Assembly: GCA_038728585.1 (NCBI GenBank)
Contig: JAVYTR010000002.1
Coordinates: 124,001 to 188,000, forward strand
Direction: 5' to 3'
Origin: Conexivisphaerales archaeon
GTDB taxonomy: Archaea > Thermoproteota > Nitrososphaeria > Conexivisphaerales > DTJL01
Length of the DNA: 64,000 nt
The notes under the pieces are model-generated. The model saw only the letters and a list, made by a program, of their open reading frames with translations. It was not told the origin of the DNA and made no database searches. A program made the position numbers and the translations under genes. Positions 25,790 through 64,000 of the stretch are shown here, piece after piece (position 1 is the stretch's first letter; every line of letters starts with the position of its first letter).

Positions 25790-27028
25790 TCAGATAGAAA
25801 GAGCGGTCTTTAGTTCGTTTCTTTCAGCAACGACCTTTCCATTTTTGATAACAGCAAGCGGTGGAAGAAGTTTCGAGAGCGCTTCCACTTCATCCCTTGC
25901 ATCCAGAAGAACGAGATCAGCCATCTTACCAGGCTCTATTCCATAACTCTTTTCGATGCGCAGAGCCTTGGCGGGGTTGACTGTTATCATGTCGAACGAA
26001 CGCTTTATTTCTTCTATTCCGGTTAACTGCTCCAGATGGACTGCCATGAACAGAACCTGAAGCATATCTCCTTTCCCAAGCGGATACCAGGGGTCCATGA
26101 TACAATCATGGCCAAGAGCAACGTTGACTCCTGACTGCAGCAGCTCCTTGATCCTAGCTATACCCCTTCTTCTTGGATACCCATCGAACCTTCCCTGCAG
26201 GTGCACATTGACCAGAGGATTCGATACTATAGTTATGTTGCTTCTCTTCAGCAAAAGTAAGAGCTTCTGCATGTAAGAACCGTTGTAGCCGTGCATCGCA
26301 GTAACATGGCCTGCGGCAACCCTTCCTTGGAAGCGCTCTCTGATCGTCTTTGCTGCGAGCACTTCCAGAAATCTTGAATTCTCATCATCTGTTTCATCAA
26401 CGTGACCGTCTATATCCTTCTTGTACCTCTTGGCTAGCTCGAAGGCAAAATCTATGGATCTAATGCCATCTTCCCTTGTGTACTCGTAATGAGGTATTAT
26501 ACCAACATTGTCGGCACCCATTTCTACAGCTCTTTCAAGAAGCGTTGCGTTACCAGGGTCTGTTAGTATTCCGTTCTGCGGAAAGGCTGTTATCTGAATG
26601 TCTATCACTCCTTTGTATTTCTCCTTCACCTTCAAAAGAGCCTTCAGAGTTTTGAGGTCTGGGTCTGAAACGTCTGCATGTGTTCTCAGGCGTGTCGTTC
26701 CGCAAGAAACTATCATTTTAAGAGCTCTTTCAGCCCTTGCAATTATGTCATCGACTGTAAGCCTCTTTTTGGCTTTGTTCCAGAGCTCTATCCCTTCGAG
26801 CAGCGTCCCTGATAAATTGTAGCCGTACATCCCCTGAGTGAGGACAGAATCCAGGTGAAAGTGCATGTCTGTGAACGATGGCAATAGCAGCCTGCCATCT
26901 GCTTTAACGATTCTATCAGCTTCGGCCTTGATTTGACTCTTTACTGACTCTATTTTTGAGCCATCTACCAAAACGTCGAATTTTCCTTCTATTCCTCTCA
27001 GCCTTACTTCTTTAAACAGTATGCTCAA
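25790..27028 (-). CDS. codA: Cytosine deaminase
   Basis: A 412-residue amidohydrolase that follows E. coli CodA with a constant offset of five residues at every active-site position. These are metal His in HFHLD (H56, H58), the substrate Gln in AFPQNG (Q151), H209 and the proton-shuttle E212 in GHVDETDDENSRF, H241 in AGHVTAMH, D308 in GHDC and W314 in DPWYPLG. NPLVNVHLQGRFD is also retained. It should hydrolyse cytosine to uracil and ammonia. One change stands out: the residue after the metal Asp is Cys309 where CodA has Asp314. TTG 27028 is chosen because a TATA box lies 28 bases before it and family similarity starts there. It is divergent from an NCS1 permease gene. Confidence 0.88.
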   Translation of the reverse strand: MSILFKEVRLRGIEGKFDVLVDGSKIESVKSQIKAEADRIVKADGRLLLPSFTDMHFHLDSVLTQGMYGYNLSGTLLEGIELWNKAKKRLTVDDIIARAERALKMIVSCGTTRLRTHADVSDPDLKTLKALLKVKEKYKGVIDIQITAFPQNGILTDPGNATLLERAVEMGADNVGIIPHYEYTREDGIRSIDFAFELAKRYKKDIDGHVDETDDENSRFLEVLAAKTIRERFQGRVAAGHVTAMHGYNGSYMQKLLLLLKRSNITIVSNPLVNVHLQGRFDGYPRRRGIARIKELLQSGVNVALGHDCIMDPWYPLGKGDMLQVLFMAVHLEQLTGIEEIKRSFDMITVNPAKALRIEKSYGIEPGKMADLVLLDARDEVEALSKLLPPLAVIKNGKVVAERNELKTALSI

Positions 27029-27050
27029 CTGACCAGCATTATCTAGCCCG

Positions 27051-27060
27051 GCATTTAAGA
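27051..27060 (-). promoter_or_regulatory. TATA box of the cytosine deaminase gene
   Basis: TCTTAAATGC on the minus strand, centred 28 bases before TTG 27028. It would be inside the gene if translation began at the earlier TTG 27073. Confidence 0.45.
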
Positions 27061-27150
27061 TTTGTAAGATCAAAATGATGTCAGGTATTCAGAAGATAAG
27101 ATAATTCAAATTTGATACAGAAAGTATGCATCAGATTGAAAAAGAGAAGA

Positions 27151-51152: not shown

Positions 51153-52724
51153 CTAGTCTGGGGGAATCTCCTTGTAAGCTAGGTCTATATTTATTCCTCT
51201 TGACTTGTGATAGTTCTTTGAAGCAAGGTAGATTATTGCTCCAGCGATGAATGAACCTGCAGCGTAACCATAAGCAAATAGGTAGCCTGGAATACCGAAG
51301 AAAGATGCCGGTGAACCCCATACTGTTGGATTTTCAAGGAACTGGGAAATCAGGAACAGAAAGACTGCACTCATGGCCACTCCTGCTATCATTAGTGCCG
51401 CTCTGGAGTCGCCTTTTTCGTTTCTGGCAGCGTAGATTACTGCAGATATACCGATGAAGAAGAAGTATATCATTGATGCTATCACAGCTGCGAATAAGGA
51501 TTGAAGGCTGCCGTAGAGAAATGCTGCCGCACCTACAAGAAAGATTGTTATGATCAGGTCCATTGCATGTGCATTTACTGGTGAACCATACTTGGGACTG
51601 ATGTACGCAAGTCTGGTTGGTAGGAACCTGTCAAACGCCTGTGCGAAGACATACCTAGAAAAGACTATTATACCGTATGCAAGAATTGAAAGATTCCAGA
51701 CGATCCACCCAAGGCCTATAAGTGCCTGAAGTGCTGTAACGTTTGTGACCCCCATTGCAAGAGTCCAGAAATTGAACGAATAATCAAAGACCAGAGTCGG
51801 ATTGGAAAGAGCCGCGTTCACGAATGGTAAGCCACCAACGTAGTAAAGTGTGGCGAAGGCTGATGTTACTAAGACAAAAACAACTATGGCAGAAATAGGC
51901 ACATTCCATCTCACAGATGTTCTTCCCTTGATCTCTGAAGCTACAGCTGGTGCTGCGTTCAGCCATGGATAGACGAATATAGCGAAGAACGGGAGCATGA
52001 AAATAGTGTTGTTCAGGTCGAAGGAAGTACCTTTGTAGCTTGCTGCAACTTTGGAATAAGTCAGGTTGGAGTTACCGAGAGAATTCATATAGTTGACTAC
52101 ACCCTGATGACCGTATGCCAGAAGGGTGAATATTGCGAGGAGCAGAGTAATGATTCCGAAGACAGTCAGAACAGAAACAAGCTTGTACCCCACCTTTGGT
52201 TTGAATATGTTGATTGCTATCAGTATGGCGAATATCGCCGCCCCTAGTAAGAATTGATAGAGTGGTTGAGAGCCCTGTATATCGCCAGGAAGTGCTAGTC
52301 CTAGGAAACTCGAGTTCCCAAAGAACAATCCAACTGAACCGATGGCAAAGACGGCTGATAGGGTTATCAGAGCAAGGTATGCTAGAGTTTCAAGAGTATA
52401 GCCCATGAAGGAGAGAGAACTTCCAAAGAAACCCCCGAACGCCCTGCTGACCCATACATAATCTCCTCCAGTCCTGGAAACCCTTGAGGTCATCATTGAG
52501 TACACTACTATCTGAGGAATGGAGATGAGGAAAGCTATAATCGAACCTATTGCGAGGTTTACCCCGCTTACGTTTACCGCGACCATAGTGAACCCGATTA
52601 TACCCAGAGCTGCACCTGCGGACATGTTGCTTATGTTGAGAGCTATTGCATCAAGCATTGAAACCCTCTTTACAAGCCCTGTCGATTCCCTCACGAATAC
52701 TGTTGGCTGTTTTTGTTCAGCCAT
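51153..52724 (-). CDS. APC-family amino acid/polyamine permease
   Basis: A 523-residue permease with about 13 membrane helices. The first helix region LDAIALNISNMSAGAALGIIGFTM has the unwound Gly-rich turn of APC carriers. It is followed by SRTGGDYVWVSRAFGGFFG, the conserved TM2-TM3 loop. The hydrophilic start (MAEQKQPTVFVRESTGLVKRV) is cytoplasmic. The cargo is likely an amino acid or polyamine. It heads a pair with the metallophosphoesterase gene. Confidence 0.85.
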   Translation of the reverse strand: MAEQKQPTVFVRESTGLVKRVSMLDAIALNISNMSAGAALGIIGFTMVAVNVSGVNLAIGSIIAFLISIPQIVVYSMMTSRVSRTGGDYVWVSRAFGGFFGSSLSFMGYTLETLAYLALITLSAVFAIGSVGLFFGNSSFLGLALPGDIQGSQPLYQFLLGAAIFAILIAINIFKPKVGYKLVSVLTVFGIITLLLAIFTLLAYGHQGVVNYMNSLGNSNLTYSKVAASYKGTSFDLNNTIFMLPFFAIFVYPWLNAAPAVASEIKGRTSVRWNVPISAIVVFVLVTSAFATLYYVGGLPFVNAALSNPTLVFDYSFNFWTLAMGVTNVTALQALIGLGWIVWNLSILAYGIIVFSRYVFAQAFDRFLPTRLAYISPKYGSPVNAHAMDLIITIFLVGAAAFLYGSLQSLFAAVIASMIYFFFIGISAVIYAARNEKGDSRAALMIAGVAMSAVFLFLISQFLENPTVWGSPASFFGIPGYLFAYGYAAGSFIAGAIIYLASKNYHKSRGINIDLAYKEIPPD

Positions 52725-52862: not shown

Positions 52863-54158
52863 TTATGCCTCAAAGAGATTGGCGTAGGCGGGAGACTTTG
52901 TAAACGTGTATTCCACCTCTCTATGCATCTCTCTAAGCCTTTCTATCCTCCTGATCACTTCGTTCTTTTCCCTTCTCTGCAGAGCTGATTGAACTATTTC
53001 AGCCACTTCAACCATGTCATTCTTATCCATTCCGAGCCTGGTTAGTTCTGCAGTACCCACCCTGATCGCCATAGGCTGTTTACTCTTCATACCTGGAATA
53101 GATTGTCTGTTGCAGAAGATGTTATACGATTCCAGCAGCCTTTCTGCAGCTATGCCTCCTCCATACTTTGATACATCAATTGCCAGCTGATGTGACTGTG
53201 TGAAGCCGAGATTCTCAGCAAGAACCTTTTCGCCCAGCTCAGCAAGCCTTGAGGCCAGGGCTTTTGCGTTATCAACGACAGCTCTTGCATATTTCTCACC
53301 GAATTCTGCGAGCTCTGCAAATGCTATAGCCTTTCCAGCAACGAGATTCGGATGATGGTTGCTTGTAAGGCCAGGAAAGATTCCTCTTTCTATCGCCTCC
53401 CTGTAACTCTCCTTTCCTACTATCGCACCTCCCTGAGGCCCAAAGAGAGTTTTGTGTGTGCTGAATGTCATAAGGTCAGCCCCCTCAGCCATCGGGTCTT
53501 GAAATCTCCTTCCAGCTATGAGACCAGCCACATGCGCCCCATCATAGAGTATTATTGAACCATGTTCATGTATAGCACTCTCCATCTCCTTTACAGGGTG
53601 AGGGAAGAGGAAGAGACTGGCTCCAAACGTAACTATCTTTGGCCTTCTGCCCTGCTTTACCATCTTCTTGAGCTTTTTGAGCGAGCTGTCCACTTCTATA
53701 TTCATAATTTCTGTGTCAAAGACGAAACTGTCAACGTCAAGACCATGAACCATCCAGGCCGATCCTGATTCCTCCTCTCCAGCTGACGAGACATGCCCTC
53801 CATAGAGTACAGGTAAGGATAGTATTGTGTCTCCTGGCGATGTTAGCGAGACGTAAACGGAAAGGTTTGCGAGCAGACCCGATGTAGGTCTGACATCTGC
53901 GAACTCTGCATGAAACAGCTTCTTCGCCAGTTCTACAGCTATCTTCTCAACTTCGTCCATATATCTGCATCCAGCATAGATTCTGGCGCCTGGAGGACCT
54001 TCTGCATACCTGTGGATCATATCTGAAGCAACTGCTCTCCTTACATCGATTGAGGTCAGGTTCTCGCTGGCTACAAGAGGAAGAGAAGAAGCGAACATCT
54101 GCTCATGTTTCTGAATGAGTTCTTTTACTTCGTTATACATGTGAAGGTTCTTCGACAT
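52863..54158 (-). CDS. Serine hydroxymethyltransferase-family PLP enzyme
   Basis: A 431-residue fold-type I PLP enzyme with the SHMT layout: SENLTS near residue 31, the YAEGPPGARIYAGCRYMDEVE block near residue 51, DGAHVAG near residue 206 and the PLP Lys K236 in FSTHKTLFGPQGG. Two places differ from ordinary SHMT. The segment after the Lys has Gln where Arg is usual (GPRGG), and the C-terminal motif that normally ends in SGIRIGTPA reads PMAIRVGTAE. The Arg for the substrate carboxylate is kept. It may be a true archaeal SHMT or a relative acting on another 3-hydroxy amino acid. A TATA box (TTTTAAAAGG, 54181-54190) is 27 bases upstream. Confidence 0.8.
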   Translation of the reverse strand: MSKNLHMYNEVKELIQKHEQMFASSLPLVASENLTSIDVRRAVASDMIHRYAEGPPGARIYAGCRYMDEVEKIAVELAKKLFHAEFADVRPTSGLLANLSVYVSLTSPGDTILSLPVLYGGHVSSAGEEESGSAWMVHGLDVDSFVFDTEIMNIEVDSSLKKLKKMVKQGRRPKIVTFGASLFLFPHPVKEMESAIHEHGSIILYDGAHVAGLIAGRRFQDPMAEGADLMTFSTHKTLFGPQGGAIVGKESYREAIERGIFPGLTSNHHPNLVAGKAIAFAELAEFGEKYARAVVDNAKALASRLAELGEKVLAENLGFTQSHQLAIDVSKYGGGIAAERLLESYNIFCNRQSIPGMKSKQPMAIRVGTAELTRLGMDKNDMVEVAEIVQSALQRREKNEVIRRIERLREMHREVEYTFTKSPAYANLFEA

Positions 54159-54197: not shown

Positions 54198-55328
54198 ATG
54201 AGTTCGAACGATAGATATGCTTTAATGCGAGTCAAACAATATGTCTGGCAACTGTTGAGCCATTCGCAAGAGGGAAGTGAGGACAAGAAGATTATTGTCT
54301 ACACGGAATCAGACGGCAGCAGGTATGAGGTGGAGTATCCTGCAACGTCAAAAATCGACGTCAGAAACATAGCAGATGCTCTTGAACTGCCAGCCTACCT
54401 AGATACTAATAGTCCGATGGTGAGCACTGCAGTTGTTGCTTTATGGGTTTCCTACAGTGCAGATGGGATTTTAGCGTTGCATAAAGAAATGGGCAGATTC
54501 AAGGAACCTCCTTCACCGTTACTAATGGGAGGCTTGGCGGTCAAGATGCTTTCCAGAACAGCAAACGAAAAAGGCCCAATGAACAGAAACGTGAAGGATA
54601 TCGACTATGTGGTTAGAAGGAGTCAGGGCGGTAATTTTGTCAAGTTGCTAAGCATTCTTTCAAACATCGCAGGCACAAGATTCTTTCATTTTCTGACCTC
54701 AAGTGACATGAGGTTCAACGCGCTGAGAGCCGGAGAGAGATACAGAATCAGGACTATCGACTGGAGTAGCTCAGACAGGCCAGAAGTAAGGTGGGTCGAT
54801 ATACTCATAGACAGGATAGAAATGAGACACAAGGTGGATGTGAGGGATGAATTTGATAGGGCGAAGAAGAATCTTTACACGATAGGCGTGGAAAAGCTGC
54901 TCCTCACCAAATGCCAGATGATTCAGGATATTGAGCAGACTGAATATGTAGCTATTCAGGAATCGGGGCAGGAATTCAGGATTCTGAGATATCCATTCTA
55001 CAAGACAGGAAGGTATCTCATAGGGATGGAGGAGAAGGACATGATGGACGCTGCTGCCCTGCTCTGTGACCATGCAGGGAATTCTGAGGTGATTGCTTCA
55101 CACCTGAGCGACCTGCTAAGAAAGGATGATAAGCTGCTTCAGACCTTCCGCCTGAACCTTGAGAACATCGAGTCCAGGAAGGACTGGCTGAGAGGCAAAG
55201 GAATATCAGAGGTTCAGCTTTCAAGAATAGATGAATCAATAGGAAATATACTGAAAAAGCTGCCGGAGAAGAGAAGATGGGATAAGCCATGGTGGAACAG
55301 GGACGTAGATACCCCTGTCATAAATTAG
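54198..55328 (+). CDS. Putative nucleotidyltransferase-fold protein, uncharacterised
   Basis: A 376-residue soluble protein without a familiar name. Residues about 105-145 carry LLMGGLAVKMLSR, then NRNVKDIDYVVRRSQGG, the spacing of the GG...(T/V)xDID core seen in AbiEii/MNT-like nucleotidyltransferases. A basic region RWVDILIDRIEMRHKVD with a possible third acidic residue follows near residue 200. The C-terminal 120 residues are helical and end in a Trp/Arg/Lys-rich tail (RRWDKPWWNRD). It is a lone gene between the SHMT-family and allantoinase-like genes; whether it belongs to a toxin-antitoxin, RNA-modifying or signalling process cannot be said. Confidence 0.55.
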   Translation: MSSNDRYALMRVKQYVWQLLSHSQEGSEDKKIIVYTESDGSRYEVEYPATSKIDVRNIADALELPAYLDTNSPMVSTAVVALWVSYSADGILALHKEMGRFKEPPSPLLMGGLAVKMLSRTANEKGPMNRNVKDIDYVVRRSQGGNFVKLLSILSNIAGTRFFHFLTSSDMRFNALRAGERYRIRTIDWSSSDRPEVRWVDILIDRIEMRHKVDVRDEFDRAKKNLYTIGVEKLLLTKCQMIQDIEQTEYVAIQESGQEFRILRYPFYKTGRYLIGMEEKDMMDAAALLCDHAGNSEVIASHLSDLLRKDDKLLQTFRLNLENIESRKDWLRGKGISEVQLSRIDESIGNILKKLPEKRRWDKPWWNRDVDTPVIN

Positions 55329-55391: not shown

Positions 55392-56816
55392 ATGCCCGCC
55401 TACGACCTTGTAATCAGAGATGTTCGTATCGTAACCGGAAAGGCCATAAAAGAATCAGATATATATGTGAAAGATGGTAAGATAGCTAGAGTCGGGCTTA
55501 TCGAGCCTAGGCCACAGGCTGATGTGGTTATAGACGGCAACGGAAAGGTTGCCTTACCCGGGCTGGTAGATACCCATGTCCACTTCAGGGACCCTGGGAT
55601 GGTGCATAAGGAAGATTTTGAAAGTGGTAGCAAGGGCGCAGCCGCTGGAGGCACCACAACTGTCATGGATATGCCTACAACTCAACCTGTGGTGACTGAT
55701 GCTGCACTCTTCAGGGAGAAACTCCAGGCTATAGCAGGTAAGGCACTTGTTGACTACGGCCTCTATGGGGCTGCCGGAATAGAGAATTTGCATCAGCTTG
55801 AAGAACTGGCCAAGGTAGGTGCTGTTGCGTTCAAGACATATACCGTTTCTCCTCCATCAGAGAGGCTGAAGGAATATGCTGGAGCGTTGGTAAGAAGTGC
55901 TGCGGAGCTTTACAAGGTTATGGAAAAGTCTGCTGCAATAGGTCTTCTGCACTGTATACATGCTGAGGATGATTCTCTGGTGCAATATCTGACTACCAAG
56001 CTGAAGGAATCTGGCAGAAAGGATGCTGAAGCGCATTGCGAGTCAAGACCGAATCTTGCAGAGGAGCTTGCTGTTCATCAGGCAATAGGGATTGCAGAGC
56101 TGACGGGAGGTAAGGTGCATCTCCTTCACATAAGCACAAGGGAAGCAGTACAAATGATAAGGTCTGCAAAGGCAAGAGGGGTAAAGGTTACCGCGGAGAC
56201 CTGCCCTCATTACCTTTACTTTACGAAGAAGGATATGCAGAAGCTTGGACCTTATGGAAAATACAACCCTCCTGCCAGGTCCCACGAAGACATAATAGCA
56301 CTATGGGAGGGACTAAAAGATGGCAGCATAGATGCTATAGTCAGCGACCATGCACCTCATTCAAGGGAAGAGAAAGATGCTGGAAGGGAAGATATATGGA
56401 AGGCACCTCCTGGTACACCAGGGGTTGAGACAAGGCTTCCGCTGGTTCTGGCGAGAGCGGCCGGATGGGGCCTTGACCTGCAGGACGTGGTAAGGCTCTG
56501 TGCCACGAACCCGGCAAGGATTTATGGGCTAGGGTGGAGAAAGGGAGAAATTACTGAAGGGATGGACGCAGATATTGCACTGATAGACCCAAACGTTACT
56601 TGGAAGATAGACAGTTCTGAGCTTCAGACGAAGGCGAAAGAGACTGTCATCTTTGACCAGATGGAGGTTAAGGGACAGGTTTTCTGCACGATAGTAAGGG
56701 GCAGAGTCGTTTATGAAAGAGGAGTGGGTTTCGAAAAACCAGGAATAGGCAGCTTTCTACCCGGACAGCTTGCTGAATCAGCTAAGAAGGGAGGAGACAG
56801 ATTCCTTTCTAGTTAA
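55392..56816 (+). CDS. Allantoinase/dihydroorotase-family cyclic amidohydrolase
   Basis: A 474-residue binuclear amidohydrolase. The site is complete: HVHFRDPG (metal His pair), AFKTYT with the carboxylated Lys, HAEDD, LHIS and SDHAPHS with the catalytic Asp. Allantoinase-like features are FESGSKGAAAGGTTTVMDMP, AETCPHYLYFT, KYNPPARS and WKAPPGTPGVET. Dihydroorotase and hydantoinase share most of these, so the substrate (allantoin, dihydroorotate or a hydantoin) is not certain. PyrB/PyrI nearby favour dihydroorotase; the xanthine-dehydrogenase-type gene and other amidohydrolases favour allantoinase. The end overlaps a convergent amidohydrolase gene by 39 bases. Confidence 0.85.
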   Translation: MPAYDLVIRDVRIVTGKAIKESDIYVKDGKIARVGLIEPRPQADVVIDGNGKVALPGLVDTHVHFRDPGMVHKEDFESGSKGAAAGGTTTVMDMPTTQPVVTDAALFREKLQAIAGKALVDYGLYGAAGIENLHQLEELAKVGAVAFKTYTVSPPSERLKEYAGALVRSAAELYKVMEKSAAIGLLHCIHAEDDSLVQYLTTKLKESGRKDAEAHCESRPNLAEELAVHQAIGIAELTGGKVHLLHISTREAVQMIRSAKARGVKVTAETCPHYLYFTKKDMQKLGPYGKYNPPARSHEDIIALWEGLKDGSIDAIVSDHAPHSREEKDAGREDIWKAPPGTPGVETRLPLVLARAAGWGLDLQDVVRLCATNPARIYGLGWRKGEITEGMDADIALIDPNVTWKIDSSELQTKAKETVIFDQMEVKGQVFCTIVRGRVVYERGVGFEKPGIGSFLPGQLAESAKKGGDRFLSS

Positions 56817-58001
56817 AATTACCTTCCCTGAACGTATTACAAAGCTGGGTTTGGAGGCCTTTCTAAGCGCTTCTCTTGGTGAAGCAGCGTCGAGTATGTT
56901 CAGGTCAGCTCTGCAATTTTTCCCTATGCCGTAATCCTTCAGTTCAAGGATTCTGGAAGAGGAGAAAGTCGGCATATACAGTAGCTTTTTAATTTCGGAT
57001 TCTGAGTTCAGCTGCCCCTCATAAGCGAACAGCCAGGCGTTTCTGACCGGGTCAAAGTCCCCGAACGGGTTATAGGGGTCAACTATGTTATCCAGTCCAA
57101 ATGCAACGTTTACCCCGGCTGAAATAAGCTCCTTTATCCTAGTCACGCCTCTTGCAGGGGGTGTGGAGCCAGCACCGCTAACCATCATGGTGCAGGGATT
57201 TGATACGACGTTTATCCTTTCATCCCTTATCATTGCAATGACTCGTTGTGCATACGAATCATCATAGTATGCCAGAGCGATGAGATGGTCTGCGGTTGCA
57301 CGACCCTGAAGATGATGCTCTTTCACAGCTTTGATAAAGTATTCTACGTAGTTTGTGTATGGCTGAACATCTATATGCATATCAAGGGGCAGCTTTCTTT
57401 CCTCAGCGAGAGAGGCTAGCTTCTCTATCTGCTTGATAGCCTTCTCCTTGTCAGACTCTGCCTCAGGAAGACCTCCTACAGCATCAGCTCCTCTGTCCAG
57501 AGCTGCTTCTATCATCTCAAATGCTTCTTCATCCCTGAATATTCCTTCCTGGGGGAATGCTACTATCTGGATGGTGACAAATTCCTGATACTTCTTCCTG
57601 AGTTCTGACAGGGCTTCGAAAGACTTGAGACCTGCTATGCCATCTATATCTACATGTGTTCTTATGTATGTGACTCCGTTTGAAACCGCAGCCTTTATGC
57701 ACCTTTCTGCCCTTGTTTTCACACCTTCTTTGGTAAATCTCTTCTTCGCTTCCCTAACCAGCTTCCTGGCTTCAACCATGCTTCTAGCTTCTGGTAATTC
57801 TTCAGCAAGAAACGCCTTGTCAAGGTGAACATGCGGTTCGACGAATGAAGGCAATACAAGATTGCCGTTTGCGTCTATCTCCTCATCCGCATCCACGTCT
57901 ATCTTTTCTTCTAGCTTGGCGATTCTTCCTGACTCTAACAGTATGTCAAATTCATTCTTATCATCAAGACCTCTGCAATTTCTCAGAAGAAGCGTCATCA
58001 T
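56778..58001 (-). CDS. Cytosine-deaminase-like amidohydrolase with an altered active site
   Basis: A 407-residue homologue of CodA. Kept are the metal histidines (PHVHLDKAF), the FPQEG Gln, the His of HIDVQ, the His of ADHLI and the metal Asp in FGLDN. Changed are the proton-shuttle Glu217 position (Val in HIDVQ), Asp314 (Asn) and Trp319 (Tyr, DPYNPFG). A normal cytosine deaminase reaction is therefore unlikely; another ring or amide substrate is probable. It follows a pyroglutamyl-peptidase gene by 21 bases on the same strand, which may point to a lactam or hydantoin pathway. Confidence 0.78.
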   Translation of the reverse strand: MMTLLLRNCRGLDDKNEFDILLESGRIAKLEEKIDVDADEEIDANGNLVLPSFVEPHVHLDKAFLAEELPEARSMVEARKLVREAKKRFTKEGVKTRAERCIKAAVSNGVTYIRTHVDIDGIAGLKSFEALSELRKKYQEFVTIQIVAFPQEGIFRDEEAFEMIEAALDRGADAVGGLPEAESDKEKAIKQIEKLASLAEERKLPLDMHIDVQPYTNYVEYFIKAVKEHHLQGRATADHLIALAYYDDSYAQRVIAMIRDERINVVSNPCTMMVSGAGSTPPARGVTRIKELISAGVNVAFGLDNIVDPYNPFGDFDPVRNAWLFAYEGQLNSESEIKKLLYMPTFSSSRILELKDYGIGKNCRADLNILDAASPREALRKASKPSFVIRSGKVILTRKESVSSLLS

Positions 58002-58022: not shown

Positions 58023-58646
58023 CTATCTGAGTGAGGAGAGATGCCTTGCGCATACCCTCACTGCTATCTCTATTGCTCTTTTCTGCTGACCAATAGGCAT
58101 TGTAATGGTATCAATCTTTGGGTTTTTTATCATGTCGGGAAGAGGGGGGACATGAATAAAGCCAGAAATCTTCACAATGTCAGCATGAAGAAATGAATAC
58201 ATTGCTGTATTGCAGCAGTGTGTTCCTGCATGGTATGATAAGATAGCTGGTATCCCTGCGCCATTCAGCTCCTTAACTATTTCGTCAGCTGGAAGAGTGG
58301 AGCCGAGTGCAAGAGGCCCACCTTTGATTATGGGCTCGTCCCTGGGTTTGTTTCCGTAATTGTCTGGAACTACGGAGTCAGCAAAGAAACTGTTCATTAC
58401 GTTCAGAGCCACCTTTTCTACCCTTATCGCTTTCGTGTAGTCCCAGCCTGTTGATATAACACAGTCTGGCCTGACCTCATCAACAAGTTTTCTTGCCAGT
58501 TTTGGCAGTGCGTAAAAATCCTCAGGGAGTACCTTTCCGACCACCTCTGCTCCATCGATTACACTTCCATTCAGCTCTTCAGCTACCATTCCTGAAGGAT
58601 TTTTGTTGCCAGCCCAAGCCTCAAACCCCGTGATAAGAATACGCAT
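58023..58646 (-). CDS. pcp: Pyrrolidone-carboxylate (pyroglutamyl) peptidase
   Basis: A 207-residue C15-family peptidase. It starts RILITGFEAWAG, as the family does, and has the catalytic triad: Glu in IRVEKVALN near residue 78, Cys in GTHCCNTAMY near residue 142 and His in FIHVPPLP near residue 164. A DEPIIKGGP segment follows the second motif. It removes N-terminal pyroglutamate from peptides in the cytosol. Pairing with a modified amidohydrolase is unusual and suggests that 5-oxoproline or a related lactam is processed here. A TATA-like ACCTTAATC lies about 24 bases upstream. Confidence 0.88.
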   Translation of the reverse strand: MRILITGFEAWAGNKNPSGMVAEELNGSVIDGAEVVGKVLPEDFYALPKLARKLVDEVRPDCVISTGWDYTKAIRVEKVALNVMNSFFADSVVPDNYGNKPRDEPIIKGGPLALGSTLPADEIVKELNGAGIPAILSYHAGTHCCNTAMYSFLHADIVKISGFIHVPPLPDMIKNPKIDTITMPIGQQKRAIEIAVRVCARHLSSLR

Positions 58647-58741: not shown

Positions 58742-59134
58742 ATGAGAATGTTGGAGACTGATTCCTTTACGAAGAGGTTTGAAAATCATAGATACATAAG
58801 CATTGAAACTTACAGAAGAAACGGTGACGCTGTCAGGACACCTGTATGGTTCGTATCAGAAGGATCCTCGCTCTATATTAGAACCTACAGTGACTCTGGA
58901 AAGGCGAAAAGATTGAAGCTGAACGGAAAGGCTAGAGTTGCTCCATGCACCTTTCAAGGCGAAGTCCTTGGTGACTGGGTAGATGTGGAGCCTTCTTTTG
59001 CTGATAGAAGTGAAACTGCAAGAGTCTTGCGTTTATTCAGGTCGAAATACGGCATTCAGATAGCTCTGACATCTCTTCTTGCCTGGTTGAAGGGGAAGAG
59101 GTATGTCGTGATAAAATTGAGTGGAAAGTCATGA
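58742..59134 (+). CDS. Pyridoxamine-phosphate-oxidase-fold (F420/flavin) protein
   Basis: A 130-residue split-barrel protein. The strands YISIETYRRNGDAVRTPVWFV, LYIRTYSDSGKAKRLKLNGKARVAPC and GDWVDVEPSF match the PPOX family of small FMN or F420 proteins. RTYSDSGKAKRL is the place where F420-dependent reductases hold the cofactor phosphate. It could reduce a quinone, haem product or drug-like ring; no substrate is evident. It is convergent with PyrI, overlapping by six bases. Confidence 0.8.
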   Translation: MRMLETDSFTKRFENHRYISIETYRRNGDAVRTPVWFVSEGSSLYIRTYSDSGKAKRLKLNGKARVAPCTFQGEVLGDWVDVEPSFADRSETARVLRLFRSKYGIQIALTSLLAWLKGKRYVVIKLSGKS

Positions 59135-59563
59135 TGGTATCTTCTTACTTATTCTAAAAAGCTCTGGGACAATATCCTTCTGGTGAAGATACCTTCCGCA
59201 GTAAGTGCAAAGTAGAACTGCAGGCTTCCTTGAAACTACAGTGAATTCTGGTAAAGCTGGTTCCTTTGGCTGAGAAGTGACGCAGTTAGGGTTGGGGCAG
59301 CTTAGGATGTTTCTGAGAGTTGCTGGCAGGTCAGGTTCGAACCTCTCTTTGGTGTTGTCGTGCAGGATACTGATTTCAGCATCAGGATGAAGCAACGCAA
59401 GCTTGGCCGAGAGGTTCTCATCCATTTCAAGCCTCCTAACTTCTATGCTCAATCTTTCTCCTTCTCTGGTCAGCTTCACTTCTTTTGCGCTCTGAATCAG
59501 CAGCTCAACAAGTCGAGAAACGTCTGAAAGGCTGCAAGTCAGGACGAAGTCGCCTCTAACCAT
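59129..59563 (-). CDS. pyrI: Aspartate carbamoyltransferase regulatory chain, divergent
   Basis: A 144-residue PyrI-type protein. The C-terminal zinc domain is intact: Cys89 and Cys94 in CPNPNC, Cys119 and Cys122 in CTYC, followed by a helix. The region before it (KLALLHPDAEISILHDN) matches normal PyrI. The first 45 residues do not resemble the usual allosteric start, whose NGTVIDHI-like motif binds ATP and CTP, although a strand-helix pattern remains. It follows PyrB by nine bases. The chain may still hold catalytic trimers together, but nucleotide control looks doubtful. Confidence 0.8.
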   Translation of the reverse strand: MVRGDFVLTCSLSDVSRLVELLIQSAKEVKLTREGERLSIEVRRLEMDENLSAKLALLHPDAEISILHDNTKERFEPDLPATLRNILSCPNPNCVTSQPKEPALPEFTVVSRKPAVLLCTYCGRYLHQKDIVPELFRISKKIPS

Positions 59564-59572
59564 CTTTCTTTC

Positions 59573-60499
59573 TCACTCCACTATCAGACTGAGTAAGGCC
59601 ATTCTCACTGGTAATCCTAGGGCAGCCTGTTGAAAGTATCTTGCATGAGGTGTGTAGTCTACTTCCAGAGGTATCTCATCTATCCTGGGCAGATGATGCA
59701 TCACTATCATAGATTCCCTGGCTCTTCCGAGCATTCTTCCTGAAACGAAGTAGCTTCCCTTCACCCTCTCGTATTCAGCTGGGTCGTTCATTCTTTCCTT
59801 CTGCAACCTTGTTACATAAAGCACATCTACCTCAGGTATAACTTCTTCAACCCTGTCGGTTTCGATGAAATCCATTCCTTTTCCCCTGAGGTAATCCTTG
59901 ACCTCTTCCTTTGCTTTGAGTTCTGAAGGGCTGACAAGGTAGAGCTTCACATCTCTGTAGTGAGTCAGGCCAAGGCAGAGTGAGGAAGCCGACCTGGTGT
60001 GTTTTAAGTCTCCGAGTATAGCTATCTTTACCCCATCAATTCTGCCAAATTCGTTTCTTATGGTGTAAAGGTCAGTCAATGTCTGAGTGGGGTGATGCTG
60101 CGTACCATCTCCTGCATTGATGACAGGCACAGAGGCTATCTCTGCAGCAAGCTTCGCTGCCCCCTCAATCTTATGCCTGAGCAGTATCACATTACCGTAG
60201 CTGTCAGCCATACGAACAGTATCTGCAAGTGATTCTCCTGTTACCACTCTCGAGTATGATGGGTCTGCGAACCCTGTAACTCCTCCACCAAGTCTCAGCA
60301 TTGCTGCCTCAAAACTGAGCCTTGTCCTAGTGCTGGGCTCAAAGAAGAGTGTAACTAGTATCTTGCCCTGTAGGGTTTGAAGACCTGTCTTGACATGACT
60401 CTTCATTGAATCTGCAACTTCGAATATATAATCAAGTTCAGACCTAGTGAAATCTGTTATGGCTATGAAGTCTCTGCCTTTCAGGTTTGGCGAGCTCAT
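59573..60499 (-). CDS. pyrB: Aspartate carbamoyltransferase catalytic chain, with unusual active-site loop
   Basis: A 308-residue carbamoyltransferase that aligns with E. coli PyrB over its length. Conserved are STRT (56-59), R108, H136 and Q139 in HPTQT, R169, and R231/Q233 in TRLQKER, which bind carbamoyl phosphate and aspartate. Two places differ. The 80s loop reads SRVVTGES, with Thr87 where E. coli has the essential Lys84, and MHHLPR has His269 where Pro266 is usual. The codons are clear (ACA for Thr), so this is not a reading error by me. Either the catalytic Lys is replaced from elsewhere or the enzyme has a changed reaction. It is followed by a divergent PyrI. Confidence 0.82.
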   Translation of the reverse strand: MSSPNLKGRDFIAITDFTRSELDYIFEVADSMKSHVKTGLQTLQGKILVTLFFEPSTRTRLSFEAAMLRLGGGVTGFADPSYSRVVTGESLADTVRMADSYGNVILLRHKIEGAAKLAAEIASVPVINAGDGTQHHPTQTLTDLYTIRNEFGRIDGVKIAILGDLKHTRSASSLCLGLTHYRDVKLYLVSPSELKAKEEVKDYLRGKGMDFIETDRVEEVIPEVDVLYVTRLQKERMNDPAEYERVKGSYFVSGRMLGRARESMIVMHHLPRIDEIPLEVDYTPHARYFQQAALGLPVRMALLSLIVE

Positions 60500-60543: not shown

Positions 60544-61428
60544 TCAGTCCTTCCATCTTGCTGCTAGCTCGTCCATCCTGCAGAACCATACGTCGTTCTT
60601 CTGCATGATGTACTGTATAGTCTGTTCGAGCAGCATGATCCTGTGTGCTCTTCCTATGCTTTCAGGATGAAGAACCAATGCGAAGAAGCCGTTCGGTTCG
60701 TTCTCATACGCATAATCAAAATCCATCCTCCAGATTTCGAAGACTTTTGATGGGTTGTCGAGCTTGGGGTAGAATGTAGAGACACCGAGGAAGTATGCCA
60801 GGTCATCCTCAATCAGCTCGTTCACAGGTATGTTGAGTAGGTTCACTTCCTTGCCGAATTCAGGAGGCCTGTCTGTGTGGTATACATCTCCATCTCTGAC
60901 CTTTGTAACCCTGAAATCATACGGCCCCATATGCTGGGAGATGTACTTGAAACCAAGGTCGATCATTATGCTGATCGTTCTTGAAGTTATTTCGTTAGCC
61001 TGTGGTATCTCAAAAGGTACCCTGTAGCCTACAGGTCTTTTACCTGTAGCCCTTTCTATCGCTTCTATTCCCTTAACGAAAGATTCTCTTTCTGCGTTTT
61101 CATCGAGAGAGGCAGGGCATTCATGGAAGTAACCATGATGCGCTATTTCGTGACCTCTCTTTGACAGGTCTCTGACCATCTCCGGATAAGTATCTGCAAT
61201 CACTCCAGGCGTGAAGAAAGTTGCTTTGATGCCATACTTGTCGAGCAACTTTGCTATTCTAGGGATGCCTGTTACTACCCCGAACTCCCCACGCGAGAAG
61301 TTGATCGGCCCGTAGTTTCCAGGTCCCAGCAGTCCTACTGCTCTCATCCTCAGCATTATCGACCATGCATCCAGGTCGAAAGATACACATACCGCAAGTC
61401 TTTTTCCTTCAGGAAGGATTATGGCCAT
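60544..61428 (-). CDS. Polysaccharide deacetylase-family hydrolase (PuuE/HP0310 branch)
   Basis: A 294-residue NodB-fold hydrolase. SFDLDAW near residue 16 has the catalytic and metal Asp pair, KATFFTPG near residue 70 the core strand and HEIAHHGYFHE near residue 95 the metal histidines, with YRVPFE further on. There is no signal peptide. This cytoplasmic branch includes cofactor-free allantoinase (PuuE) and peptidoglycan deacetylase relatives. Lying between a xanthine-dehydrogenase-type gene and PyrB, and near another allantoinase-like gene, it is more likely to open a ring such as allantoin than to act on polysaccharide. Confidence 0.8.
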   Translation of the reverse strand: MAIILPEGKRLAVCVSFDLDAWSIMLRMRAVGLLGPGNYGPINFSRGEFGVVTGIPRIAKLLDKYGIKATFFTPGVIADTYPEMVRDLSKRGHEIAHHGYFHECPASLDENAERESFVKGIEAIERATGKRPVGYRVPFEIPQANEITSRTISIMIDLGFKYISQHMGPYDFRVTKVRDGDVYHTDRPPEFGKEVNLLNIPVNELIEDDLAYFLGVSTFYPKLDNPSKVFEIWRMDFDYAYENEPNGFFALVLHPESIGRAHRIMLLEQTIQYIMQKNDVWFCRMDELAARWKD

Positions 61429-61515: not shown

Positions 61516-63825
61516 TTATTCTGACCTTAGGATAAAAGGAAGAAAAGGTGTCGAATTGAACTTCAAATTCGGGTTCTGATGAAGCGTGGCTCTTCTTATG
61601 GCGTTGGCGATAGCAGCTGAGGGTCCAACTATACCACTCTCCCCTATTCCCTTTATACCAAGAGGGTTGAGGTTTGTTGGGGAGTCGAGGTGTTTTATAT
61701 CAAAGTTTGGAACTTCCTTGGCTGTTGGGATGAGATACTCCATGAATGAATTCGTCAGCAACTGTCCCTCTTCAGAGTATTGAAGTCCTTCGAAGAGGAA
61801 GCTGGCTATACCCTGAGTGATACCTCCATGAAGCTGACCTTCGACTATGTCAGGGTTTATCATCACTCCGCTGTCCTCTATGTCTGTGTAGTTCAGTATT
61901 CTGACTGCAGATGTTTCCTTATCGATTGAGACAAGGACCAGATGTAGACCTCCAGAAACTGTCAATCCTTCAGGCTCGTACACAGAGGTTGCTTCTAGAG
62001 GCGCTGGAATAGCTACAGCCTCATACGCTATCTTGGCCAATTGCTTCAGCGTAATCGACCTCGAAGGATCGTCTTTATGCTTAACCATCCCTTCTTCAAA
62101 GACTAGCGAATGTATAGGCACGTCGTAGAACTTCGAAGCAACGAGAAGCATCTGAGCCTTGAGCTGCTCTACGCATCTATACAGTGCTCCGGCGCCTACC
62201 ACTGCGCTTCTGCTCCCCCACGTGCCATAGCCGTAAGGTGTTGCTAGAGTGTCTCCATGTCTGACTTCTACTTCTTCTGGAGAGATGCCCAGCAGGTCTG
62301 CGCAGACTTGACTGAGTGTTGTTTCAAGCCCCTGACCGTGCGGAGAGAGAGCTGTTAAGACCTCGACCATGCCATCAGGAAGTATACGAACGGTCATTGA
62401 TTCGTAACCCTTGTGCCTTGCACCTGAGGCTGCCTGAATGAAGGAAGGGCCTATTCCCGCAGATTCAAATCCAAAGGCTATACCAACACTGAGAATTTCA
62501 TCTGGTCGTTCAGACCTTGATTGGCTTAGACTCTTCAGGATATTCTCGGCCTCCTTGAGCATAGAAACATAATCACCCGTATCTATGACCCTGCCTGTAG
62601 CTGTTCTGTACGGAAAAGACTTGGCTACGTTTATCTTCCTTATCGTTATCGAGTCTAACCCCAGCCTTATTGCAGCCTCGTCTACGAGCCTCTCCAGGAC
62701 GAAAGCTGCCTGCTGCTGACCGAAACCCCTGTAAGCTCCTACCGGAGTTTTATTGGTTGCAACACAGTCCAGCCTTATAGCTACATTCTCTATCATGTAT
62801 GGGCCTGTCATGTTAAGCAGGGTAAGATAGGGCGGACCCAAGCTCATAGGCCCATAAGAACCTACATCAGCTATTATGTGGTCTCTCAGAGCAAGTATCT
62901 GTCCTTCCTTGGAAACAGCTATTTCTGCATAATGAATCTGGTCACCTGAATGGACTGTCGATGTGAAGTCTTCGCTCCTTGTTGCTGTCCATTTCACCCT
63001 TCTACCCAGCTTCTTCGCAGCGTAGCTGACAAGCACTTCTTCCCTGTAGAGGTCTTGCTTGTTTCCGAAGCCCCCACCGACATCAGGAGCTATAACTCTG
63101 ATTTTGCTCTCAGGATGATTCAGCGTTTCTGCAAGCAGAGTCCTGACAAAATGCGGCCACTGAGTTGAAGAATAAACGGTCAGCTGAGATGATGACCTTT
63201 CGTAGTCAGCTATCGCGCCTCTAGGCTCCATCGCTGCACCATACTGTCTCGTAATGCTGAAAGTTTCAGATATTATAGCATCAGCATCCGCGAAGGCTGA
63301 CTCAACATCACCTCTCTTCAACTCGGTGCTGTAAACTACGTTGCTTTCCAGCTTTTGATGAATAGTCTGGTTTGCATTCATAGCCTTTATTGCATCTGTC
63401 AAAGGCTCCTCTGGCTCATAGCTGATTGCTATCTGCTCAAGGATGTCGTAAAGCTGGTAGGCGTCGCCTTCTATGACTATTGCTGCCAAAGGCTCACCGA
63501 CAAAGTTTGTCTTACCTATCGCAAGAGCCTTCCACGGTAGTTTCTTGCAGCCTGATGGAGCCGAAATCAAAGGAATCTCACGGGTATCTCTATCTATATC
63601 TTCGCCTGATATGCAGAGGAGCACCCTCGGGTCTTCTCTGATAGACGAAAAATCGACTTTGAAACCTGCCTTTGCATATTGGCTCCTTAAGATGCCGAGC
63701 AGTAGAGGCCTCTTATCGTTTATATCATCAACATACCTTGTCTCCCCTAACAATACTCTAAGGTCTTCCTTTCTCCTTATTCTCTTTCCTATGTATCTCC
63801 ATGAACTGTTTGCCAATAACTTCAC
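61516..63825 (-). CDS. Xanthine dehydrogenase/aldehyde oxidase-type molybdenum subunit
   Basis: A 769-residue large subunit of the molybdenum hydroxylase family. It has the N-terminal IGKRIRRKEDLRVLLG opening, the molybdopterin segments GGGFGNKQD near residue 240 and AYRGFGQQQA near residue 355, the SPHGQGLETTLSQ motif and the catalytic Glu in KGIGESGIVG near residue 730. AYRGFG rather than AYRCSFR points to the xanthine/purine branch, not CO dehydrogenase. The iron-sulfur and FAD subunits are not in the window. The GTG start 63825 has a TATA box 25 bases upstream. Its likely role is purine or N-heterocycle hydroxylation. Confidence 0.88.
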   Translation of the reverse strand: MKLLANSSWRYIGKRIRRKEDLRVLLGETRYVDDINDKRPLLLGILRSQYAKAGFKVDFSSIREDPRVLLCISGEDIDRDTREIPLISAPSGCKKLPWKALAIGKTNFVGEPLAAIVIEGDAYQLYDILEQIAISYEPEEPLTDAIKAMNANQTIHQKLESNVVYSTELKRGDVESAFADADAIISETFSITRQYGAAMEPRGAIADYERSSSQLTVYSSTQWPHFVRTLLAETLNHPESKIRVIAPDVGGGFGNKQDLYREEVLVSYAAKKLGRRVKWTATRSEDFTSTVHSGDQIHYAEIAVSKEGQILALRDHIIADVGSYGPMSLGPPYLTLLNMTGPYMIENVAIRLDCVATNKTPVGAYRGFGQQQAAFVLERLVDEAAIRLGLDSITIRKINVAKSFPYRTATGRVIDTGDYVSMLKEAENILKSLSQSRSERPDEILSVGIAFGFESAGIGPSFIQAASGARHKGYESMTVRILPDGMVEVLTALSPHGQGLETTLSQVCADLLGISPEEVEVRHGDTLATPYGYGTWGSRSAVVGAGALYRCVEQLKAQMLLVASKFYDVPIHSLVFEEGMVKHKDDPSRSITLKQLAKIAYEAVAIPAPLEATSVYEPEGLTVSGGLHLVLVSIDKETSAVRILNYTDIEDSGVMINPDIVEGQLHGGITQGIASFLFEGLQYSEEGQLLTNSFMEYLIPTAKEVPNFDIKHLDSPTNLNPLGIKGIGESGIVGPSAAIANAIRRATLHQNPNLKFNSTPFLPFILRSE

Positions 63826-63845: not shown

Positions 63846-63855
63846 CTTTTAAGTA
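63846..63855 (-). promoter_or_regulatory. TATA box of the molybdenum-subunit gene
   Basis: TACTTAAAAG on the minus strand is centred 25 bases before GTG 63825 and overlaps the stop codon of the amidohydrolase gene upstream, so the hydroxylase gene can be transcribed on its own. Confidence 0.45.
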
Positions 63856-64000
63856 TTATGCGTATTCAGCCTGATGCCACTTCTATCGAGCAGTTCCACA
63901 GCTGCCTTTGCCGCTTCTTCGATTATCATAGGTTCGTCAAGAGTCAGAACCTTCCTTCTCTTCATTATCACCCTCCCATCGACTATCAGAGTATCCACAT
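63849..64000 (-). CDS. Amidohydrolase, C-terminal fragment (gene continues past the window)
   Basis: The last 49 residues of a gene that enters the window from the right edge, stopping at TAA 63849-63851. VDTLIVDGRVIMKRRKVLTL and the following DEPMIIEEAAKAA helix are the typical closing strand-and-helix of the SsnA/TrzN/guanine-deaminase branch of metal-dependent amidohydrolases. It precedes the xanthine-dehydrogenase-type gene by 23 bases on the same strand. An aminohydrolase for guanine, a purine derivative or a related ring fits the neighbourhood, but the catalytic part is outside. Confidence 0.7.
   Translation of the reverse strand, partial: VDTLIVDGRVIMKRRKVLTLDEPMIIEEAAKAAVELLDRSGIRLNTHNT

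Follow-up and report, generated by a model that had tools for sequence, protein, structure and literature searches.

A diverged PyrI without a recognisable nucleotide site, paired with an altered PyrB in an archaeal family, and its possible link to nucleobase or ureide breakdown

In the window, that is, the whole 64,000-nucleotide stretch of DNA analysed here, two adjacent genes on the minus strand encode a PyrB-like catalytic chain of 308 aa (59573..60499) and a PyrI-like chain of 144 aa with no recognisable nucleotide site (59129..59563). The latter is a real gene, with its ATG at 59563, nine bases after the pyrB stop and in the same frame, and its stop ending at 59129. A diverged PyrI of this type was found in five genomes, namely that of the window (G000), three relatives of the same family (G001, G002 and G003; with G000 they represent three genera), and Candidatus Marsarchaeota G1 BE_D; these five are referred to below as the clade. 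The PyrB chain scored 352.9 bits against TIGR00670 (cut-off, 236.95). In Pfam, the window PyrI scored 55.8 bits against the zinc domain PyrI_C, PF02748 (cut-off, 23.4), and its motif CPNPNC...CTYC (59198..59299, minus strand) keeps all four zinc cysteines, C89, C94, C119 and C122, as an earlier sequence-only reading of this DNA had claimed; four cysteines are present in 5/5 clade members. For the allosteric domain PF01948, no match was found at E values up to 1 in the window genome, the window PyrI or the PyrIs of the four relatives, and the canonical archaeal PyrI L069, serving as positive control, matched at 8.5e-32. Against TIGR00240 the window PyrI reached 61.4 bits (cut-off, 148.55), versus 163.6 for L069. 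All 12 PDB sequence matches of the window PyrI were PyrI chains, and the matches started at residues 24-38. The 3' end of pyrI overlaps by 6 bases a plus-strand gene at 58742-59134 for an F420-dependent PPOX-type oxidoreductase (TIGR03666 over cut-off), a homologue of which occupies the same place in G002.

The five clade PyrIs were aligned with 65 intact PyrIs, namely E. coli and 64 archaeal rows, after the frame-broken L070 had been dropped. Seven positions of E. coli PyrI were followed, of which H20, T82, N84 and K94 are ones that we take to belong to the nucleotide site. Together with D19, K56 and K60, they were invariant in 65/65 intact PyrIs outside the clade; the window PyrI kept 0/7, with L, T, R, E, E, S and R at these places, and each of the other four clade members kept one (H20 once, N84 once and K94 twice), counts to be read with the caveat that the alignment register is uncertain in so diverged a domain. 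Asp19, Lys56 and Lys60 are given as allosteric-site or nucleotide-linked residues in the accessible text of PMC6056424. Similarly, the motif GxV[IVL][DN]H was present in 65/65 intact PyrIs and in 0/5 clade members. A comparison with other archaeal PyrIs had been put forward with the sequence-only reading, and its outcome, no position kept in the window as against all seven in every intact PyrI, agrees with that reading. Two of its details needed revision, however. The lack of an ATP/CTP-binding segment had been placed in the first 45 residues, and the missing PF01948 match and the alignment fit this, but the loss extends over the whole N-terminal, allosteric-type domain of about residues 1-78 (59330..59563, minus strand), as delimited by an AlphaFold model, profile comparison and alignment. 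The end of this domain had been called intact; its later part is indeed related to the canonical domain (profile comparison: 42 columns, E 3.5e-5 when calculated for a single comparison, probability 72%), but the ligand positions are absent from it.

The distribution of constraint along PyrI also differed between the two groups. In canonical PyrI, the N domain was better conserved than the zinc domain, with median pairwise identities of 55.1% versus 42.2% (2080 pairs, in 120 of which N fell below C). The order was reversed in 10/10 clade pairs, the N/C identity ratio ranging from 0.26 to 0.66 versus a canonical minimum of 0.78 over the 2080 pairs, and N-domain identity among the five members was 15-48%. 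Nevertheless, the N domain is under constraint, with a pN of 0.335 versus a pS of 0.839 (saturated) when the window is compared with G002; the same comparison gave a pN of 0.168 in the zinc domain and of 0.078 in PyrB. By these measures, constraint on PyrI has shifted from the sensing part to the clamping part without disappearing. The change is common to five genomes and is not the decay of one gene.

AlphaFold models were obtained for the PyrIs of the window (pLDDT 87.5, pTM 0.79) and of BE_D (pLDDT 84.7, pTM 0.76), both from alignments five rows deep only. Each was predicted as a beta-alpha-beta-beta-alpha-beta unit plus a zinc domain, that is, a small PyrI-like fold. The best Foldseek matches were PyrI chains, 1pg5_B for the window model (2.5e-9) and 2yww_A for the BE_D model (4.8e-8). 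In VIA-align, the window model matched M. jannaschii PyrI (2yww_B) with Z 11.9 and an rmsd of 2.8 over 127 residues, and the ATP-bound E. coli chain 4kh0_B with Z 10.3; since the latter alignment starts at E. coli residue 14, residues 1-13 of E. coli PyrI have no aligned counterpart. PII-like proteins were also matched, weakly (best Foldseek E 0.039 for the window model and 0.025 for the BE_D model; VIA Z about 7), and ACT-type domains were matched weakly by the window model in Foldseek.

The catalytic chain has changed in step with PyrI, in accordance with the statement in the sequence-only reading that PyrB is altered. In the 80s loop (60239..60250, minus strand), R84 and T87 stand in the alignment for E. 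coli S80 and K84, and H269 (59693..59695, minus strand) replaces P266, turning HPLP into HHLP. For comparison we used the 74 distinct rows bearing RxQ among 88 rows, the other 14 being ornithine carbamoyltransferases by motif. The K84 equivalent was T in 5/5 clade members and K in 69/69 other ATCase rows; that of S80 was R in 5/5 and S in 68/68 others, with one gap; that of P266 was H in 5/5 and P in 69/69; and position 166 was T in 5/5 and G, S or A in 69/69. The clade PyrB keeps the STRT, HPTQ and RxQ motifs, and the aspartate-binding residues R167, R229 and Q231 were kept in all 74 rows, RxQ being present by the choice of rows. According to the available part of PMC4581275, aspartate is held in ATCase by R167, R229 and Q231; carbamoyl phosphate is bound by S80 and K84, which the neighbouring subunit contributes, and K84 in addition helps to position the alpha-carboxylate of aspartate. 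A quick tree, without bootstrap, was built from 79 rows, that is, the 88 PyrB/ornithine carbamoyltransferase rows minus ten (two partial, one with an internal stop and seven ornithine carbamoyltransferases) plus E. coli. The five clade PyrBs were monophyletic (SH-aLRT 100), the four of the family forming a group apart from BE_D (97), and the clade and the sister-family ATCases of the order met in a three-way fork.

PyrI-like matches were found in 42 of the 61 genomes searched, which comprised the window's and its relatives; BE_D (L033) was added by a scan of genome contigs for PyrB, in which two further loci, L034 and L037, proved to be the same places as the PyrI loci of G003 and G001. In an even sample of 398 genomes across the phylum, which left out the relatives G001, G002 and G003, 329 had a PyrI match, the window scoring 6e-65 and the next best 4e-27; 29 loci of this sample besides the window's were retrieved, and, with identical rows merged, each of their PyrIs had the canonical motif. 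Of 60 genomes around BE_D, 40 had a PyrI match, and only that of BE_D was clade-like (3.6e-59; next, 2.6e-27). Within the order, PF02748 matched 4/20 genomes, all of the window's family, and no PyrI gene was seen, by reading, beside pyrB in ten sister-family loci. A lack of PyrI in the sister families was considered on these grounds, but PF02748 overlooks at least one PyrI of the order, that of G005 described below. We also considered that the contig with the BE_D copy might be contamination by a member of the window's family, and rejected this on modest evidence, namely composition and the PyrB branch outside the family. In tetranucleotide composition, L033 correlated at 0.20-0.60 with six loci of BE_D and at -0.10 to 0.23 with 13 loci of the family, ranges that touch; BE_D loci among themselves gave 0.13-0.68.

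The neighbours of pyrB and pyrI are largely shared among the clade genomes. Directly upstream of pyrB in 5/5 loci is a gene for a PuuE-like hydrolase of the polysaccharide-deacetylase family (60544..61428, minus strand; 82-94% identical), and the three genes are contiguous in every locus. Beyond it lie the large subunit of a molybdenum hydroxylase of the xanthine/aldehyde/CO dehydrogenase family (61516..63825, minus), also present in G001, G002 and BE_D and not found on the G003 contig stretch, and the 3' end of a TRZ/SsnA-like amidohydrolase gene (63849..64000, minus) that runs past the window edge, with an adenine deaminase gene farther on, outside the window. By reading, no genes for FAD or iron-sulphur subunits adjoin the molybdenum hydroxylase gene. 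On the other side of pyrI are genes for a pyroglutamyl-peptidase-like protein (58023..58646, minus; PF01470), a CodA-like amidohydrolase of the cytosine deaminase family (56778..58001, minus) and a cyclic amidohydrolase of the hydantoinase/allantoinase/dihydroorotase type (55392..56816, plus), which scored 375 bits against the allantoinase model TIGR03178 (cut-off, 357.85) and whose nearest PDB chain was an L-hydantoinase (294 bits versus 239 for allantoinase and 218 for dihydroorotase). These are followed by a gene for a conserved protein of 376 aa without Pfam or NCBIfam match (54198..55328, plus), kept in G001, G002 and G003, where it adjoins the hydantoinase-like gene and is 44-59% identical over the matched parts; by a serine hydroxymethyltransferase gene (52863..54158, minus), kept in G001 and G002; and by a gene for a permease-like membrane protein (51153..52724, minus), read as APC type and without an NCBIfam match, which G001, G002 and BE_D also have. 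About 24 kb separate the permease end of the cluster from a second gene of the cytosine deaminase type (25790-27073; PRK07572 over cut-off). The adenine deaminase and the serine hydroxymethyltransferase were over their NCBIfam cut-offs; the PuuE-like, molybdenum hydroxylase, CodA-like and TRZ/SsnA-like genes were below family-specific cut-offs and are assigned at the family level only.

Counting pyrB and pyrI, 14 genes of the window locus were compared, of which 14 were found in G002, 12 in G001, nine in G003 and five on the short BE_D contig. At four canonical pyrBI loci, the same search gave two in BE_D, three in each of two Geothermarchaeota and two in Aciduliprofundum. The third gene at both Geothermarchaeota loci was an amidohydrolase, 30.5-32.0% identical, located after the canonical pyrI; a cyclic amidohydrolase thus also follows canonical pyrBI, and that neighbour alone is no proof of breakdown. 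From their sequences, the conserved neighbours look mostly catabolic, acting on nucleobases or ureides. By reading, neither uricase nor any other pathway-specific enzyme was identified in the cluster, so the substrate and direction of the clade PyrB are guesses.

The genes for the later steps of pyrimidine synthesis lie elsewhere. In each of G000 and G002, a different contig carries pyrE (by reading) together with pyrD and pyrF (both by Pfam), none of the 14 locus genes, including pyrB, pyrI and the cyclic amidohydrolase, had a match at that locus, and no other ATCase was found in either genome. G000 has two PF02729 genes, the clade pyrB and an ornithine carbamoyltransferase gene, the latter recognised by DxxxSMG and HCLP motifs although it also matched TIGR00670. 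In G001, which is 95% complete, pyrD and pyrF were not detected over family cut-offs; these genes lie close to each other in the relatives, so one gap could explain both absences. G003 had a partial pyrF match over cut-off. BE_D carries both the diverged pair and a canonical set of pyrD, a PyrK-like gene, pyrI, pyrB, pyrE and pyrF (pyrB and pyrI over NCBIfam cut-offs, the others by reading). PF02787, a domain of the carbamoyl-phosphate synthetase large subunit, was not found in G000, G001 or G002 and was present in 3/20 genomes of the order, one of them G003, so absence of the synthetase is not family-wide. Archaea without the synthetase can obtain carbamoyl phosphate from arginine via ornithine carbamoyltransferase, as stated in the accessible portion of PMC13260591. 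Given this route, a missing synthetase does not by itself implicate the clade PyrB. Carbamate kinase was over cut-off in 4/4 family genomes and in 17/20 of the order, and so common a gene is no mark of the window's family.

ATCase is a textbook allosteric enzyme, and the clade PyrB-PyrI probably no longer works as a feedback-controlled ATCase of that kind. Ordinary nucleotide feedback is very unlikely because PyrI has no recognisable ATP/CTP pocket and PyrB is altered in step with it; to this extent, the earlier proposal of a complex freed from normal pyrimidine feedback is upheld, but its implication of a pyrimidine-pathway enzyme that has merely been freed is poorly supported in view of the replaced S80, K84 and P266, the neighbours, the canonical pair of BE_D and the gene content of G001. 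We favour, at a probability of roughly one half, the reading that this carbamoyltransferase has been recruited to nucleobase or ureide breakdown, with PyrI kept as a scaffold. The zinc domain would still clamp the catalytic trimers, making PyrI a scaffold and not a sensor, and PyrB would act on a small ureido acid resembling carbamoyl-aspartate, adding or removing its carbamoyl group; this class of substrate is indicated by the retention of R167, R229 and Q231. The direction would most likely be breakdown: the PuuE-like and hydantoinase/allantoinase-like neighbours may open a cyclic ureide, PyrB may phosphorolyse the N-carbamoyl acid so formed, and carbamate kinase or ornithine carbamoyltransferase may then take up the carbamoyl phosphate. 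Assembly of PyrB with PyrI, the part of PyrI as a scaffold, the type of substrate and the direction are all inferred. The stricter version, in which a complete PyrB-PyrI has acquired a new carbamoyltransferase activity, phosphorolysing a ureido acid that resembles carbamoyl-aspartate and stems from nucleobases or hydantoins after ring opening, to give carbamoyl phosphate while the former sensor acts only as scaffold, is put forward tentatively, as a proposal that may well fail.

The main competitor is an ordinary biosynthetic ATCase that has merely lost CTP/ATP feedback, R84 of the 80s loop taking over from K84. Without the clade PyrB, the de novo pathway of G000 and G002 would lack a step, as no other ATCase was found there and pyrE, pyrD and pyrF are present; the retained aspartate-binding residues, the TIGR00670 score over cut-off and the nearby hydantoinase/dihydroorotase-type gene, with its counterpart after canonical pyrBI in two control loci, point the same way, and for the window's own genome a deregulated biosynthetic ATCase stays a reasonable explanation. 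On the whole, however, we consider it rather unlikely: all three catalytic-site positions are replaced in 5/5 members, BE_D has the clade pair in addition to canonical pyrBI beside pyrD, pyrE and pyrF, in G001 the pair occurs without pyrD or pyrF over cut-off (although the loss of a single stretch could account for this in a genome 95% complete), and the rest of the neighbourhood looks catabolic. Dual use, in which one enzyme makes carbamoyl-aspartate for pyrimidines and handles ureido acids in breakdown, in either direction, at the price of nucleotide control, would account for a single gene that serves genomes with pyrE, pyrD and pyrF and sits in a catabolic-looking island; we regard it as improbable, since both tasks would fall to one active site that has lost K84, and BE_D keeps two separate enzymes.

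Two further explanations concern PyrI itself. The retained fold of the models and their weak PII-like matches would suit an N domain whose diverged residues go on binding a nucleotide or some other small ligand, but this domain is poorly kept among the five members even though it is the more conserved half of canonical PyrI, and we give such binding only a slim chance. As to an artefact of frameshift, wrong start or misassembly, each of the five genomes is a metagenome assembly or has no stated origin; however, the open frame and architecture recur in all five and the N domain is constrained, which reduces its probability to almost nothing, and assembly artefact was set aside as the cause of the diverged PyrI on the ground that the same form is present in five genomes.

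Several known systems resemble parts of the clade PyrB-PyrI system. The class B-type ATCase holoenzyme of E. coli, Sulfolobus and M. jannaschii shares with the clade the adjacent pyrB-pyrI, the zinc domain, the TIGR00670 match, the STRT, HPTQ and RxQ motifs and, in the models, the PyrI-like fold, but the clade differs in S80 to R, K84 to T and P266 to H, in the absence of PF01948 and of nucleotide-site residues in the window, and in its neighbourhood. As described in the accessible sections of PMC4016543, the UGTCase Rxyl_2847 of Rubrobacter xylanophilus is an ATCase-like enzyme of a purine-degradation operon that phosphorolyses allantoate; among tested enzymes it is the nearest precedent for the proposed breakdown role. 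Pseudo-ATCases and UGTCase are like the clade PyrB in their ATCase origin, changed HPLP motif and context of purine-degradation genes. In the window locus, that context consists of adenine deaminase and allantoinase models over cut-off, with the cluster kept in the relatives and the other assignments at the family level. However, the same sections of PMC4016543 state that pseudo-ATCases have lost RxQ, which the clade keeps, list their motifs as HPLA, H[ST]LP or HSLP, with the clade's HHLP absent from Table 1, and describe no PyrI partner for pseudo-ATCases or UGTCase. UGTCase also keeps K106, the suggested equivalent of K84 (Table 1 of PMC4581275, a source available in part), whereas the clade PyrB has lost it. 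The candidate that the clade PyrB is itself a UGTCase or pseudo-ATCase was rejected because RxQ is kept. A separate authentic ATCase accompanies the clade pair in BE_D, and none was found in G000. The YgeW-type knotted carbamoyltransferase also lies beside xanthine-dehydrogenase-like and hydantoinase genes in nucleobase gene clusters, according to the same sections of PMC4016543, but belongs to another branch of the superfamily, the window PyrB scoring 38.4 bits to TIGR03316 versus a cut-off of 500. In Pseudomonas ATCase an inactive homologue is likewise kept as a partner, but it is a pseudo-dihydroorotase and not PyrI (PMC7053772, as far as its accessible text goes). We found no description of a PyrI without a nucleotide site, or of an archaeal ATCase-like enzyme of purine breakdown, in an open-access library that leaves out most subscription papers, judging mainly from titles and the openings of abstracts.

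In the clade, the two genes have stayed paired through the erasure of the nucleotide site in PyrI and the changes at S80, K84 and P266 in the catalytic site of PyrB, and form a natural series. Such a series could separate the parts of PyrI needed for assembly from those needed for signalling, and could show whether an ATCase-type enzyme works without K84. It also carries a warning for annotation, as TIGR00670 alone would label the clade enzymes ATCases. If the breakdown role is true, it would add a source of carbamoyl phosphate in G000, G001 and G002, where no PF02787 was found.

Two other pyrI sequences were encountered in the order. G003 also has canonical-type pyrI pieces in two frames (L070:2397-2847, minus strand, contig G003:C23), behind a 28-residue C-terminal piece of PyrB, which may represent decay or an assembly error; a coverage of about 2.8-fold is given for another G003 contig. 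In a sister family, G005 has an open frame of 393 aa (L071:1293-2474, contig G005:C2) that combines a PyrI whose allosteric domain is normal (PF01948, 101 bits) and a phosphoribosyltransferase-like part, read as PyrE from Pfam matches below cut-off, suggesting a possible PyrI-PyrE fusion. Its zinc domain was weak enough to escape PF02748 (PyrI_C E 0.032), and the profile thus missed this PyrI in the count for the order.
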